DNA of 64,000 bases from an uncultured Subdoligranulum sp. GTDB lineage: Bacteria; Bacillota; Clostridia; Oscillospirales; Ruminococcaceae. The position numbers and the translations under genes are program-made. The DNA lies in NCBI GenBank assembly GCA_945830575.1, contig CALZZE010000001.1, positions 1-64,000 on the forward strand, written 5' to 3'. Numbering within the stretch: the first letter of the stretch is position 1; each line of letters opens with the position of its first letter. Below the pieces are notes generated by a model. The model ran no database searches and was not told the DNA's origin. It worked only from the letters and a program-made list of their open reading frames with translations. Below, one piece after another: positions 4,575 to 55,216 of this stretch.

Positions 4575-5630
4575 ATGAAAAAATTGTTAGCTCTGGCTGT
4601 TGCCGGCTGCATGGCGCTGTCTCTGGCGGCCTGCGGCGGTTCCACCGCATCCAGCGCCCCCGCCGCCTCTTCTGAGGCTGCCAGCTCCGCCGCTGAGAGC
4701 GCCGCGGAGAGCGTTGCCGAGTCCACCGCCGCCGGCGGCAAGATCGGCGTCTGCATCTACAAGTTTGACGACGCGTTCATGACCACCTACCGCAATGCCC
4801 TGCAGGAGATCCTCGAGGGCAAGGGCTACGAGGTCACCGTCGTGGACGGCAACAACGACCAGAACAAGCAGAACGAGCAGATCAACACCTTCATCACCCA
4901 GGGCGTTGACGCGCTCATCATCAACCCCGTCATGACCTCCGCTGCTGACCAGATCATCAGCACCGTCAAGGACGCGGACGTTCCCACCGTCCTCATCAAC
5001 CGTGAGCCCACCGCCGATCAGATGTCCGCTTACGAGAAGCTGGTTTACGTTGGCTGCGACGCCGCTCAGTCCGGCACCATGCAGGGCGAGCTGATCCTCG
5101 ACACCGAGAACAAGGGCGACATCAACGGTGACGGCAAGGTTTCCTACATCATGATCCAGGGCGACCCCGAGAACATCGACGCGCAGCTGCGTACCGAGTA
5201 CTCCGTCAAGGCTCTGACCGACGCCGGCGTCGAAGTCGAGCAGCTGGACCTCCAGCGCGGCGACTGGGACCGCAACAAGGGCCAGGAGATCGCTCAGAAC
5301 GACCTCGCCAAGTTCGGTGATCAGATCGAAGTCGTCTTCTGCAACAATGACGACATGGCCATCGGCGCTCTGCAGGCCATCCAGGCTGCGGGCCGCACCG
5401 TCAACAGCGACATCTATCTGGTCGGCGTTGACGCTCTGGACGCTGCTCTGAACGAAGTCGAGGCCGGCAACATGACCGGCACCGTTCTGAACGACGCCAA
5501 GGGCCAGGCCTCTCAGGCTGTCGAGTGCATGGAAGAGCTGCTGGGCGGCAAGACCTTCGCTGCCGGCGAGCAGAGTGTGTACGTTGACTACGTCAAGGTC
5601 ACTCCTGACAACGTTGCTGAGTTCAAATAA
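4575..5630 (+). CDS. mglB: galactose/glucose-binding lipoprotein MglB
   Basis: A 351-residue binding protein of the D-galactose/D-glucose ABC transporter. The signal peptide ends in the lipobox LAAC (Cys20), followed by a Ser/Ala-rich linker. Near residues 182-190 is DINGDGKVS, the equivalent of the calcium-binding loop of E. coli GGBP, which is the best evidence for the MglB subfamily. The C-terminal half has FCNNDDMAIGALQAIQAAG and DALDAALNEVEAG, as in the family. The ATG at 4575 is preceded by GGAGG (4562-4566). It is separated from mglA by a strong hairpin, so it is probably made in excess over the channel. Glucose or a methylgalactoside cannot be excluded as ligand. Confidence 0.92.
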   Translation: MKKLLALAVAGCMALSLAACGGSTASSAPAASSEAASSAAESAAESVAESTAAGGKIGVCIYKFDDAFMTTYRNALQEILEGKGYEVTVVDGNNDQNKQNEQINTFITQGVDALIINPVMTSAADQIISTVKDADVPTVLINREPTADQMSAYEKLVYVGCDAAQSGTMQGELILDTENKGDINGDGKVSYIMIQGDPENIDAQLRTEYSVKALTDAGVEVEQLDLQRGDWDRNKGQEIAQNDLAKFGDQIEVVFCNNDDMAIGALQAIQAAGRTVNSDIYLVGVDALDAALNEVEAGNMTGTVLNDAKGQASQAVECMEELLGGKTFAAGEQSVYVDYVKVTPDNVAEFK

Positions 5631-15171: not shown

Positions 15172-15431
15172 GTGTAAAACGCATTGACGGAGAAAAGTAC
15201 CTGCCCGCACGTGGATGCAGAGAGAGGGGCCGCCGGCTGAAAGCCCCTCCGGAACGCAAGGCAGCGAAGTTCCCTCCCGAGCGGTCTGTGTGAACGGCTT
15301 TCCCAGTAGCGCAGAACGGCAGCCCCGTTACCGGCACAAAACGAGTGCCGCGCTTCTGCGCGGAACACGGGTGGTACCGCGAGACTTTTTCAGTCCCGTC
15401 CCTGAGTCAATTCCGGGGACGGGGCTTTTTG
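15172..15431 (+). promoter_or_regulatory. T-box leader with Phe (UUC) specifier
   Basis: The region between the BI-1 gene and pheS is a T-box riboswitch. It carries AGAGAG in the distal stem I region, the conserved T-box GGGTGGTACCGCG (15369-15381), and a terminator CCCGTCCC / GGGACGGG (15395-15402, 15416-15423) with T-run to 15430. The probable specifier is TTC (15270-15272), followed after six bases by GAG, the same spacing as the TGG specifier of the second T-box here. Uncharged tRNA-Phe binding would favour the antiterminator and pheST expression. Confidence 0.92.
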
Positions 15432-36941: not shown

Positions 36942-36967
36942 AAAGCGTTCAGACTTTGTCGGTCAAA

Positions 36968-37043
36968 ACTCCCTCCGCCGGCATTACCCGGATCAGGTTA
37001 AGGGTACTTCGCTCTCGCAAATCTCAGCCTTACGGCGCCCCTG
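36968..37043 (-). promoter_or_regulatory. TPP riboswitch (THI element)
   Basis: On the minus strand the aptamer runs from GGGGCGCCG to GGCGGAGGGAG. It contains CTGAGA and CCCTTAACCTGATCCGGGT, the two universally conserved TPP contacts. It precedes an intrinsic terminator and thiT, so thiamine pyrophosphate should shut off thiamine uptake. Confidence 0.95.
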
Positions 37044-37060
37044 TTTTTATGTCCAAAACC

Positions 37061-43418: not shown

Positions 43419-43424
43419 TGCTTT

Positions 43425-43710
43425 AAACCGATGAAACGAAAGTAAAACTGCAAGCGCACCCACAGAGAGCCCCCGATGCTGGAAACGGGGTGGAGAGCGG
43501 CGCAGACAAATGGTTCGTTGAGGGCACGGGGAAATGCACGGGCAGAGTATCCGTTGACGGAAGCCTCCGTTACAGGGCAGGGGAGTGTTGGCTCTCCGCA
43601 GAGCGGTCATGTTGTACCTTTTTAGCATGGCAAGCAGGGTGGCACCACAGATAACATGTTATCTGCCCCTGCACAGGGAATTGTCCTGTGCAGGGGCAGT
43701 TTCTATTTTA
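43425..43710 (+). promoter_or_regulatory. T-box leader with Trp (UGG) specifier
   Basis: A second T-box: AGAGAG in the distal stem I region, T-box sequence AGGGTGGCACCAC (43636-43648) and a very strong terminator, CTGCCCCTGCACAGG (43663-43677) / CCTGTGCAGGGGCAG (43685-43699) followed by TTTCTATTTT. TGG at 43511-43513 is followed after six bases by GAG, the same spacing as TTC-N6-GAG in the pheST leader, and so is the likely specifier. Low charged tRNA-Trp would open transcription of the ABC transporter. Confidence 0.9.
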
Positions 43711-43728
43711 TCGAAAAGGGGAATCTTC

Positions 43729-43776
43729 ATGAAAGTACGTCCACAGCTTTACCGGCGATGGCGATGGCGGCGCTGA
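43729..43776 (+). CDS. Trp/Arg-rich leader peptide ORF before trpX
   Basis: A 15-codon ORF encoding MKVRPQLYRRWRWRR, with AAAGGGGA 8 nt before its ATG. It lies just after the T-box terminator and ends 48 nt before the trpX start. Two Trp codons are surrounded by six Arg codons in the last eight residues. The layout recalls the B. subtilis anti-TRAP (rtpA) operon, where a T-box is followed by a Trp-containing leader peptide. A second, translational Trp sensor is inferred; no alternative hairpin was found between the ORF and trpX. Confidence 0.55.
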   Translation: MKVRPQLYRRWRWRR

Positions 43777-43824
43777 ATCGTCCACACCCCACCATCCAGA
43801 CAAACACAGAAAGAGGTATTATTT

Positions 43825-44850
43825 ATGAAAAAGCTCATCGCCGTCCTGTCCGCCGCCGCTATGACCCTGTCTCTGGCCGCCTGCGGTTCCACCGCCGCTG
43901 TTTCCTCCGCCGCGTCCTCCTCCGGGGAGGCTGCCTCCTCCGCCGAAGCCGCCGACGCGCAGCACTACAAGATCGCCATTGTCCAGCAGCTGGACCACTC
44001 CTCGCTGGATGAGATCCGCACCGCCGTGGAGGCCCAGCTGGAGGCCCGCGCCGCCGCTGACGGCTTCACCGTGGAATACACCGAGTACAACGGCCAGAAT
44101 GACGCCAGCACGCTGAACCAGATCGGCACCCAGGTGGCGGACGGCGGCTTTAACGCGGTGGTGCCCATCGCCACACTGGCCGCCCAGACCATGGTCACCG
44201 CCACCGAGGGGCTGAATATGCCGGTGGTGTACGCCGCCATCTCTGACCCGGAGGCCGCCGGTCTCACCGACCTGCCGCTGGTCACCGGCACCTCCGATGC
44301 GCTGAACACCCCCTTCATTCTGGAAATGATGCTGGCCGTCAACCCCGACATCCAGACGGTGGGCCTGCTCTACTCCAACTCCGAGACCAACTCCGCCACC
44401 CCCATCGCGGAAGCCAAGGCGTATCTGGACGAAAAGGGCATCGCCTATGTGGAAAAGACCGGCAACACCAACGATGAGATCCTGTCCGCGGTAGCCGCCC
44501 TGTCCGACCAGGTGGACGCCGTCTTTACCCCCACCGATAACGTGGTCATGGCCGCCGCTGCCGCCGTGTCCGAGCAGCTCACCGCCGCGGGCGTACCCTT
44601 CTACACCGGCGCGGACTCCTTCGTCAACGAGGGCGCCTTTGCCACCTGCGGCGTCAACTACACTGAGCTGGGCACCTACACCGCCGATATGCTGGTGGAT
44701 ATCCTCGCCACCGGGGAGGTGCCGGAGTTCCACGTGATGGACGGCGGCATCATCACCGTCAACACCGAGACCGCCGCCGCGCTGAACATTGACTACTCTG
44801 TGTTCAGCACCATGGCCAACACCGTGGTGGAGGTCGCCACCGCCGGGTAA
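43825..44850 (+). CDS. trpX: tryptophan-type ABC transporter substrate-binding lipoprotein
   Basis: A 341-residue lipoprotein of the ABC_sub_bind family (PF04392). The signal peptide ends in LAACGS and is followed by a Ser/Ala/Glu linker. Family blocks: YKIAIVQQLDHSSLDEIRTA, TEYNGQNDASTLNQIGTQ, YAAISDPEAAGLTD and FTPTDNVVMAAAAAVSEQL. Named trpX because the T-box with a UGG specifier and the trpYZ-like neighbours match known Trp transporters of Firmicutes. Without the regulatory context the ligand would be unknown. AAAGAGG precedes the ATG. Confidence 0.88.
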   Translation: MKKLIAVLSAAAMTLSLAACGSTAAVSSAASSSGEAASSAEAADAQHYKIAIVQQLDHSSLDEIRTAVEAQLEARAAADGFTVEYTEYNGQNDASTLNQIGTQVADGGFNAVVPIATLAAQTMVTATEGLNMPVVYAAISDPEAAGLTDLPLVTGTSDALNTPFILEMMLAVNPDIQTVGLLYSNSETNSATPIAEAKAYLDEKGIAYVEKTGNTNDEILSAVAALSDQVDAVFTPTDNVVMAAAAAVSEQLTAAGVPFYTGADSFVNEGAFATCGVNYTELGTYTADMLVDILATGEVPEFHVMDGGIITVNTETAAALNIDYSVFSTMANTVVEVATAG

Positions 44851-44918: not shown

Positions 44919-45836
44919 ATGCTGACCACCGCCGTTGTGTTCAATGCTCTGGAGCTGGGTTTCATCTACGCTCTGGTGGCTATGGCGCTGTTTTTGAGTT
45001 TCCGTGTTCTGAATGTGGCCGATATGACCACCGATGGCGCCTTTGTGCTGGGCTGTGCCATGTCCGCCACCGCCGCCGTGGCGGGGCACCCGATCCTGGG
45101 CCTGCCCATGGCCATGCTGGCAGGAGCTGCGGCGGGGTTCATCACGGCTGCCCTGCAAACCCGGTTCGGTGTGCCCTCCATTCTGGCGGGCATCATCACC
45201 AACACCGGGCTGTACACCGTCAATCTGGCGGTGATGGGGTTCTCCTCCAACGTGCCTATGCTCAAAACTACCACGATTTTCACGATGCTGCGTGATGTGA
45301 TGGGCGAAAAAGCCCCCTACAAGCTGGTGCTGTGCGCGGGCGTAACCACCGTGGTGTGCGCGCTGCTCATCCTGTTTCTGGGCACCCGGCTGGGCCTGTC
45401 CATCCGCGCCACCGGCGACAACCCGGACATGGTGCGCGCCAGCTCCATCAACACGGCGTTCACCATCACGGTGGGCCTGTGCGTGTCCAACTCCATGACG
45501 GCGCTGTCCGGCGCAGTGCTGGCGCAGTATCAGAAATCCGCCGACATCAATCTGGGCACCGGCATGGTGGTCATCGGTCTGGCCTCCCTCATCATCGGCG
45601 AAAGCCTGTTCGGGCGGGGCGGCCTGTGGCGCAAGGCGGTGGCGGCGGTCATCGGCAGCGTCATTTACCGGTTCATCATCGCCATCGCGCTGCGGGCCAA
45701 CGTTCCGTCAGAGTGCCTCAAGCTCATCTCCGCCTGCATTGTGGCGCTGGCCATCGCCGCGCCCACCATCAAGGCAAATTACGATTTCAAACGCCGCCGC
45801 GCCAGCGCCATGAAAGGGGGCAAAGGCCATGCTTGA
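44919..45836 (+). CDS. trpY: tryptophan-type ABC transporter permease
   Basis: A 305-residue BPD_transp_2 permease with about eight membrane segments: LGFIYALVAMALFLSFRVLNVADMTTDGAF at the start, shown in part as VLNVADMTTDGAF, and LGLSIRATGDNPDMVRASSI in the coupling loop. Such permeases accompany ABC_sub_bind lipoproteins. AAAGGAG precedes the ATG. The ATPase gene starts 8 nt before its stop. Confidence 0.9.
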   Translation: MLTTAVVFNALELGFIYALVAMALFLSFRVLNVADMTTDGAFVLGCAMSATAAVAGHPILGLPMAMLAGAAAGFITAALQTRFGVPSILAGIITNTGLYTVNLAVMGFSSNVPMLKTTTIFTMLRDVMGEKAPYKLVLCAGVTTVVCALLILFLGTRLGLSIRATGDNPDMVRASSINTAFTITVGLCVSNSMTALSGAVLAQYQKSADINLGTGMVVIGLASLIIGESLFGRGGLWRKAVAAVIGSVIYRFIIAIALRANVPSECLKLISACIVALAIAAPTIKANYDFKRRRASAMKGGKGHA

Positions 45837-46635
45837 TCTGAAAAATGTGGGCAAGACCTTCAACCCGGGCACCGTCAATGAAAAGGTGGCGCTCCAGAAT
45901 GTGAGCCTGCATCTGGAGGCGGGGGACTTCGCCACCATCGTCGGCTCCAACGGCGCGGGCAAATCCACGCTGTTCAATGCCATCGCGGGCAGCTTTCTGC
46001 CAGATACCGGCACCATCGTACTGGACGGCAGGGACATCACGCTGCTGCCGGATTTCAAGCGCTCCAAGACCATCGGCCGGATGTTTCAGGACCCGCTGAA
46101 GGGCACCGCGCCCAACATGACCATCGAGGAAAATCTGGCGCTGGCGTTTTTGCGGGCTTCCCGGCAGACCTCGCCCTTTTCCCGCATCTCCAAAGCGGAC
46201 CGGGCGCTGTTTGCGGAACGTCTGGCCCAGCTGGGGCTGGGGCTGGAAAACCGGATGAAACAGCCGGTGGGGCTGTTGTCCGGCGGCCAGCGTCAGGCGT
46301 TGACGCTGCTCATGGCCACGCTGGTCACCCCCAAGCTGCTGCTGCTGGACGAGCACACCGCCGCGCTGGACCCGGCCACCGCCGACAAGGTGCTGGAGCT
46401 TACCCGGCAGATCGTGTCGGAGAATCATATCACCTGCCTGATGATCACCCACAACATGCACGATGCGCTGACGCTGGGCAACCGCACCCTGATGATGGAC
46501 AGCGGCCGCATTGTGCTGGACGTCGGCGGGGAGGAACGCGCCCACATGACGGTGGACGGCCTGCTGGACCGCTTCGCCCAGAACGCCGGCCACGCGCTGG
46601 ACAATGACCGCATCCTGCTGAGCAAACAGGAATAA
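45829..46635 (+). CDS. trpZ: tryptophan-type ABC transporter ATPase
   Basis: A 268-residue ATPase. Walker A GSNGAGKSTLFNAI, Q-loop MFQDPLKGTAPNMTIEENLA, signature LSGGQRQALTLLMATL and Walker B LLLLDEHTAALDP, with His in place of Pro after DE as is usual in this subfamily. ITHNMHDAL is the switch region. It overlaps trpY by 8 nt and ends the operon at a terminator. Confidence 0.9.
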   Translation: MLDLKNVGKTFNPGTVNEKVALQNVSLHLEAGDFATIVGSNGAGKSTLFNAIAGSFLPDTGTIVLDGRDITLLPDFKRSKTIGRMFQDPLKGTAPNMTIEENLALAFLRASRQTSPFSRISKADRALFAERLAQLGLGLENRMKQPVGLLSGGQRQALTLLMATLVTPKLLLLDEHTAALDPATADKVLELTRQIVSENHITCLMITHNMHDALTLGNRTLMMDSGRIVLDVGGEERAHMTVDGLLDRFAQNAGHALDNDRILLSKQE

Positions 46636-55117: not shown

Positions 55118-55216
55118 CTCCGGCGGATAGATTTTGACCGCAGACAAGACCGCCAGCCTTGTCCCGGTTTGCGCCCCGGCCGAAGCCGGGACGGAGCCTA
55201 AAATCCTAAGTTGCTC
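55118..55216 (-). promoter_or_regulatory. preQ1-III riboswitch
   Basis: On the minus strand the leader begins GAGCAACTTAGGATTTTAGG and ends TGCGGTCAAAATCTATCC followed by GCCGGAG. From memory these blocks match the preQ1-III class known upstream of queT in Faecalibacterium and relatives, including the CTGGCGG segment that pairs with the CCGCC near the end. The last bases (GGAG, 55121-55118) are the queT ribosome site, so ligand binding should block translation. I have not run a covariance search. Confidence 0.88.

Follow-up and report, generated by a model that had tools for sequence, protein, structure and literature searches.

A Trp T-box followed by a conserved CGA-TGG leader ORF upstream of trpXYZ: a candidate tandem tryptophan sensor in Bacillota

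In the E. coli trpL and TnaC systems, a short ORF with one or more Trp codons precedes a Trp-related operon, and terminator hairpins or Rho take part in the control. The leader ORF of Bacillus subtilis rtpA contains several consecutive Trp codons, and its stop codon lies close to the rtpA ribosome site. According to the available part of one account (PMC11255114), rtpA (yczA) combines a Trp T-box acting on transcription with tRNA-dependent ribosome stalling that controls translation. In Streptococcus suis, a T-box with a UGG specifier and a terminator precede trpX, and trpXYZ is induced by low Trp; in the accessible portion of that paper trpX is treated as controlled by the T-box alone, and the term 'open reading frame' is absent from its whole text (PMC9382623). 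In Staphylococcus aureus, the leader peptide rbfL links starvation to translation initiation by means of a scarce Arg codon, as stated in the part of the report at hand (PMC13009471). Here we describe a trpXYZ locus that carries both a Trp T-box and a short leader ORF with Trp codons.

Anatomy of the trpX leader

The features of the locus in the window (the whole stretch of DNA analysed, 64,000 nucleotides) are collected in Table 1. The original prediction had placed here a T-box with a UGG specifier, its terminator and then a 15-codon ORF with its own ribosome site, ending 48 nt before the trpX ATG, and all of these elements were confirmed. It had also proposed two stacked Trp sensors, which the anatomy bears out: a Trp T-box and then a conserved leader ORF with a Trp codon. 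The ORF lies 3' of the T-box terminator and reads ATG AAA GTA CGT CCA CAG CTT TAC CGG CGA TGG CGA TGG CGG CGC TGA. Five of the last eight residues are Arg and not six, as had been stated, six being the number in the whole peptide. The two Trp codons and the Arg-rich tail, taken at first as the feature, proved to be local, and the part that is kept is a single CGA-TGG-C.

Table 1. Coordinates of the trpX leader and the trpXYZ genes in the window
Feature	Position	Strand	Basis or remark
Promoter-like TTGACA-17-TATAAA	43390..43419	+	Read in sequence; directly 5' of T-box
Trp T-box leader (RF00230)	43422-43673	+	71.0 bits, E 2e-15, full model covered
UGG specifier	43511-43513	+	Place in covariance-model (CM) alignment; same place kept in relatives
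T-box sequence GGGTGGCACC of antiterminator	43637..43646	+	Sequence and CM alignment
Intrinsic terminator	43663-43699, T-rich tail to 43709	+	16 pairs, 11 G-C
Ribosome site AAGGGG of leader ORF	43716-43721	+	Sequence
15-codon leader ORF, peptide MKVRPQLYRRWRWRR	43729-43776	+	Own ribosome site; similar ORFs in many Bacillota
CGA-TGG-CGA-TGG, kept Arg(CGA)-Trp core, doubled here	43756..43767	+	Comparison with TrpX-selected loci
Spacer, leader stop to trpX	43777..43824	+	No terminator; no fold common to relatives
trpX, substrate-binding protein	43825-44850	+	PF04392; ATG at 43825
trpY, permease	44919..45836	+	PF02653
trpZ, ATPase	45829..46635	+	PF00005

In the covariance-model search, the T-box was assigned to the T-box riboswitch family, Trp class, at a score under the curated gathering score of 93, and because of this it is absent from the default scan. 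The UGG specifier, the GGUGG T-box sequence and the terminator are present at the locus. The only other terminator match on the + strand overlaps the terminator of Table 1. A scan for consensus promoters, which requires T at the sixth place, was silent on the promoter-like element. Pattern matching found UGG at the specifier place in 71 of 73 leaders. The pattern missed L075, whose sequence plainly has UGG, and L160, which is the same locus as L248 and aligns UGG in the CM. A Met specifier (AUG-G) was ruled out because relatives keep UGG at this place, while the base after it may be any of the four. The specifier pattern matched none of 20 loci of streptococcal type; in the CM alignments of three of these (L248, L256 and L261), GAAAUUGG at the specifier place gives UGG one base on.

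The genes trpX, trpY and trpZ form a three-gene ABC operon 3' of the T-box leader. The trpX product scored 184 bits against NCBIfam TrpX, under the family cut-off of 390. The window's genome stands near Gemmiger, a title carried by 16 of the 48 named TrpX relatives, and in G. formicilis strains TrpX is 71-73% identical to that of the window. The TrpX query gave eight matches in the window's genome, and a second TrpX-like gene lies at 4575-4997 of the window (37% identity over its first part, E 2.8e-9). Ten T-boxes were found in this genome, the trpX T-box among them. Another lies in the window at 15175-15401 (108.9 bits), 5' of a PheS-like gene, with what looks like a UUC specifier. The window also holds, on the minus strand, a PreQ1-III riboswitch (55118-55216, 86.7 bits) and a TPP riboswitch (36953-37052, 67.6 bits).

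Conservation of the leader ORF and its CGA-TGG core

Leaders were counted among loci selected by TrpX, which avoids selecting on the core, and ATG starts only were scored. The 147 loci comprised 48 named relatives and 29, 40 and 30 loci from further TrpX lists, the window's own being left out. The 40 were drawn from the next 48 places of the TrpX list, with eight places passed over: the known bearers G006, G031, G046 and G163, together with G094, G101 and second copies in G062 and G099. Nine duplicates were dropped; 33 loci had no T-box motif by pattern (the script misfiled two streptococcal-type leaders here), 45 had a T-box only, and 60 had a T-box and past it an ORF with ribosome site (SD), ATG and Trp codon. 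The TTG-started leaders L051 and L261 stand outside these 60. CGA precedes TGG in 56 of the 60 ORFs. Among the four others, L123 (ATA-TGG-CGA) is likely a drifted leader, judged by its sequence, while L032, L140 and L158 look like chance ORFs. The base that follows is limited to C (53 of the 56 CGA-TGG cases) and T (the other 3), and where Arg follows TGG directly it is encoded by CGN in 48 of 48 cases and never by AGR. The kept core is thus CGA-TGG-C (rarely T), in leaders whose peptide, length and stop vary. The leader ORF with its Trp codon is not a chance feature, and in all likelihood the ORF is translated. The tandem T-box/leader locus is real, conserved and Trp-linked. The leader ORF is nevertheless optional behind Trp T-boxes, because 45 TrpX leaders with a T-box have no ATG-started ORF of this kind. 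According to the original prediction, T-box leaders without a conserved ORF would refute the idea. Such leaders do exist, in the number just given, so that half of the test went against it; where the ORF exists, its start, its frame and CGA-TGG are mostly kept.

Among the 48 named loci, 46 were examined, and CGATGG lies in a short ORF before trpX in all 16 Gemmiger-titled loci and some others. Outside the core the peptides differ (e.g. MNLMKERWQA, MKTILLKERWRPFSAEC, MFQYTRRWRGLT, MFILSKRWRA and MLLTRRWRITG). A pattern combining T-box and CGATGGC was found in 40 of 396 family genomes, spread over 18 of 126 genera; the reversed control gave one genome. At least three of the 40 (G067, G269, which is L106, and G117, which is L110) are not such leaders, nor is a second pattern match in G000. 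A phylum-wide scan matched 51 of 398 genomes with a looser pattern that also has many control matches, and loci were available for part of the matched genomes. L160, L163, L172-L175 and L178 were used from it; L159, L166, L169, L180, L182 and L185 were judged to be chance or gene-start matches, L185, by a later judgement, being a chance match 5' of a ThrRS-like gene. Of 81 rows with T-box and CGATGG (pattern-selected and TrpX-selected mixed, close relatives included), 76 had a scorable ATG, and the ATG with the best SD was in frame with CGA-TGG in 72 of them and in each of the other frames in 2; 5 of the 81 had no in-frame SD start.

Both the peptide and the nucleotides are under constraint. 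Nine different codons, CGA never among them, supply the K, R or E that precedes CGA in 53 of 74 rows, and R follows W in 65 of 74, some of the rows having been selected by CGATGGC. In 12 unique leaders of Gemmiger type, 85 of 149 single-base codon differences 5' of CGA are synonymous. A pairing partner for CGAUGGC in the same RNA was sought in 74 rows, including the chance match L185 and with L049 and L166 dropped. The longest complement was 7.1 upstream (7.3 in shuffles) and 7.0 downstream (6.1), a small downstream excess without a consistent partner, and the candidate was rejected.

A P-site I:A pair slows decoding of the next codon. The draft genome of the window (33 tRNA hits) has the Arg anticodons ACG, CCG and TCT and no TCG. 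CGA is read by an ICG tRNA in most bacteria, as given in the parts available of two papers (PMC3711424, PMC10454642), and the section at hand of a review describes I:A decoding as weaker (PMC5009743). CGA makes up 5.7% of Arg codons in the long ORFs of the window, 6.4% in ORFs of leader-bearing loci and 16% in streptococcal-type loci; it is not rare in the last, which counts against the tandem sensor favoured below.

A TrpX tree was built from 118 rows, part of which had been selected by pattern. The leader occurs on both sides of its midpoint fork and requires 15 gains or losses, at least 10 of them forced by well-supported branches. Nine duplicate or cut rows were left out of this tree, and 12 leader labels were set by hand after the script misread the start or the T-box. 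By this distribution, the leader would be either old with losses or spread more than once. In the streptococcal-type order around the distant match G687, whose TrpX scored 494 bits against 3lft (which we take to be an S. pneumoniae protein), the leader was present in 20 of the best 30 TrpX loci, many of them near-copies, with peptides such as MKKRWRRSL, MEIKRWRRLNK and MKRWRSSR. The leaderless loci of this order (L264, L266, L267 and L271-L277) had no T-box motif in the upstream stretch examined, in 10 of 10 cases. Of ten distant leader loci tested, seven of them from this order, all had an Rfam T-box match, 7 over the gathering score. A weak second T-box match (48-53 bits) was seen 3' of trpX in L248 (3137-3302) and L256 (1238-1401, minus strand).

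The leader ORF is also found 5' of TrpB2 (L105, L107, L117), TrpB (L114, L118) and an M20 amidohydrolase (L095, L096), the gene being identified by family models in L107, L114 and L095 and by eye in the other four. These downstream genes are consistent with a Trp regulon. The second Trp T-box of the window's genome, 5' of a TrpB2-like gene, has no leader ORF, and no such ORF follows the other T-boxes of this genome, where two unrelated SD-ATG stretches only were seen. Between terminator and trpX, no leader ORF was seen in L033-L036, L038, L039, L041, L045, L047, L067, L069 and L076. These trpX leaders, of Flavonifractor type and some others, share a C-rich stretch, e.g. CCATCTGCCGCC or CCATCGCCCACCCAAA, which by eye is complementary in places to the T-box bulge TTTGGGTGG.

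Position of the Trp codon and possible route of action

The distance from TGG to the gene was the tightest of four distances (median 70, IQR 64-76.5, MAD 6; 71 rows), the MADs being 10 for ORF start to gene, 17 for T-box to gene and 18 for leader stop to gene. In 65 of 71 leaders the gene starts 55-87 nt after TGG, and in 18 of 20 of the streptococcal-type set 59-75 nt after it, while the leader stop ranges from fused (no stop) or overlapping to +107 nt (71 leaders). L049, L166, L086, L097 and L185 were dropped from the set of 71 rows, and L088 and L105 were kept despite doubtful gene starts. T-box sequence and core are 192-305 nt apart in L268-L270 (79-106 nt in the four other leaders measured), yet TGG there remains 67-69 nt from trpX. 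Because this distance is the tightest, and is kept in L268-L270 despite the long gap from the T-box, it seems to be the gene, and not the T-box or the leader stop, to which the Trp codon is tied. The spacing is not strict, since six leaders exceed 100 nt (L011, L012, L063 and L082 of the 71; L262 and L265 of the 20). In streptococcal-type genomes, insert-like stretches lie between T-box and leader ORF in L268-L270 and between leader ORF and trpX in L262 and L265. The leader ORF of L022, L078 and L112 lacks a stop codon and continues in frame with trpX, whose own ribosome site remains; these loci may encode an N-terminally extended form of TrpX.

The frame of the leader is open to the gene in 8 of 69 leaders, against 22.8 expected from shuffles, and the stop before the gene is under selection. 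For this test and the folding test L088 and L105 were dropped too, and the folding test was also done without leaders in which TGG and gene are over 100 nt apart. Across the 65 leaders folded, there was no shared structure that hides the SD of the gene. As a general rule, SD sequestration relieved by stalling was rejected: the mean unpaired probability was 0.49 free and 0.53 stalled, against 0.53 and 0.55 in shuffles (p 0.42 for the difference, 65 leaders), although single loci do shift. No second intrinsic terminator occurs between leader ORF and trpX in the window. Rho was over cut-off in 4 of 17 bearers and not in the other 13; the window's genome is one of these 13, with a best match of 37 bits against a cut-off of 509. 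Because no common fold hides the SD, no terminator lies there in the window and Rho is present in 4 of 17 only, we infer by elimination an effect of the leader on translation or on mRNA life.

On balance we favour, with some confidence, a tandem tryptophan sensor, in which the T-box is followed by a ribosome-based leader that senses charged tRNA-Trp at the level of translation. Uncharged tRNA-Trp would bind the T-box and let RNA polymerase pass the terminator, a step of known kind. A ribosome would then start at once on the leader ORF of the new mRNA and meet CGA-UGG. As long as charged tRNA-Trp stayed scarce, it would halt there, the P site occupied by CGA and the A site by UGG; once Trp had recovered, it would read on to the leader stop and leave. 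Decoding of CGA by the ICG tRNA depends on a weak I:A pair, which may sharpen the halt at a single UGG, and CGA-UGG would thereby do the work that Trp-Trp runs do in classical leaders. The halted ribosome would in most leaders stand 55-87 nt upstream of the gene, clear of the gene's initiating ribosome by the usual footprint sizes, and would raise expression of trpX (or trpB and others) through translation or mRNA half-life. That the ribosome stalls, what CGA contributes, and in which direction and by which route the leader acts are inferred. Against the tandem sensor stand the 45 T-box loci and the TrpB2 T-box of the window's genome that have no such leader, the six leaders with TGG beyond 100 nt, the absence of such a peptide from the S. 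pneumoniae Ribo-RET list, and also the lack of a structural partner to explain how a halted ribosome acts. We hold only tentatively that the codon pair itself, an I:A wobble codon in the P site beside a hungry A-site UGG, is a kept starvation switch across Bacillota, one that would work with no attenuator fold, mostly without Rho, linked to a Trp T-box and at a near-fixed distance to the gene.

Other readings explain part of these observations. A constitutive upstream ORF might open the 5' region or feed ribosomes to the gene by re-initiation, the Trp codon being incidental. This agrees with the absence of a common fold from the spacers and with the finding that the leader is closed by a stop ahead of the gene in 61 of 69 cases. 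It is unlikely, however, as the place of the stop is free while that of TGG is kept, and an incidental Trp codon would vary more than CGA-TGG does. It is also improbable that the ribosome is arrested by the nascent peptide ...(K/R/E)-R-W, perhaps sensing free Trp in the manner of TnaC and not an empty UGG. The residues kept before CGA and after W, with synonymous change, speak for it, but such an arrest has no need for CGA among six Arg codons, and W is the last residue in L062 and L083 or is followed elsewhere by 19 and more residues.

That CGAUGGC is kept as an RNA or DNA site, not as a translated codon pair, would explain why the conserved letters cross codon borders and why Arg after TGG is never AGR. 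We consider this quite improbable, given that the motif is in frame with the ribosome site in nearly all scorable rows, that an in-frame stop is commoner than chance and that complements hardly exceed those in shuffles. The bias to C or T after TGG would also suit a hungry-codon +1 frameshift at CGA-UGG-Y, with Gly GGY in the new frame, like the Ty3 site; the accessible part of a review covers CGA serving in the P site at Ty3 as well as hungry codons (PMC5009743). But the +1 frame is open to the gene in 27 of 69 leaders (24.9 expected) and the shifted product has no visible use, which makes a frameshift very improbable. Finally, stalling on the leader might control Rho or a second intrinsic terminator before trpX. 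In some GC-rich genomes the C-rich, G-poor spacers resemble rut sites by eye, and a few bearers do have Rho. With the other 13 bearers, the window's genome included, lacking Rho over cut-off, no terminator between the ORF and trpX in the window, and leader-gene intervals folding as shuffles do (mean z -0.2, 65 leaders), there is very little chance that transcription attenuation is the answer.

Comparison with described systems

A search of the literature on T-boxes with Trp leader peptides, upstream ORFs and trpX, in which subscription journals were thinly covered, found no description of the CGA-TGG leader. Neither RWR nor KRW occurs as a string in the text of the S. pneumoniae D39 Ribo-RET study, its table of 114 sORFs included; in the media of that study, we assume, the T-box was not active. 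The study does list rio112, a TTG-started frame across a T-box sequence, between spv_2394 and spv_1605. If the tandem sensor is true, many gut Firmicutes and streptococcal-type bacteria would place two successive tRNA-Trp sensors on a single mRNA, the later of which would depend on one exact codon pair. It would provide a natural case of a synonymous codon, CGA, strongly selected for its decoding weakness, and a test bed for the effect of P-site I:A pairing on the response to amino-acid starvation. Studies of the trpXYZ T-box, treated as the only control in the available part of the S. suis work, would gain a further layer.

The leader differs from rbfL, which, in the portion of the report at hand (PMC13009471), overlaps the rbf ribosome site so that pausing blocks it, senses Arg and is presented with no mention of a T-box. 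The alternative terminator and antiterminator hairpins that follow the leader ORF in a classical trpL-type attenuator were not found here, and Rho, on which arrest of the TnaC type depends in its host, was not found over cut-off in the window's genome. The comparison with rtpA (anti-TRAP), made in the original prediction, is apt. As in rtpA, a leader ORF with Trp codons and its own ribosome site lies between the T-box terminator and the gene. The prediction that the mechanism must differ also fits, the leader stop not being held near the next ribosome site. In rtpA the ribosome terminating on the leader covers the ribosome site of the gene, whereas here 48 nt separate the stop from trpX. In place of a run of Trp codons there is one CGA-TGG pair (doubled in the window), with a free stop and TGG about 70 nt from the gene, and the targets, unlike that of rtpA, are a transporter, trpB, trpB2 and an amidohydrolase. 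Thus the known kind is the rtpA type, and what is new is a tandem T-box/leader-peptide sensor, as proposed here, in which one codon pair replaces the runs of Trp codons.
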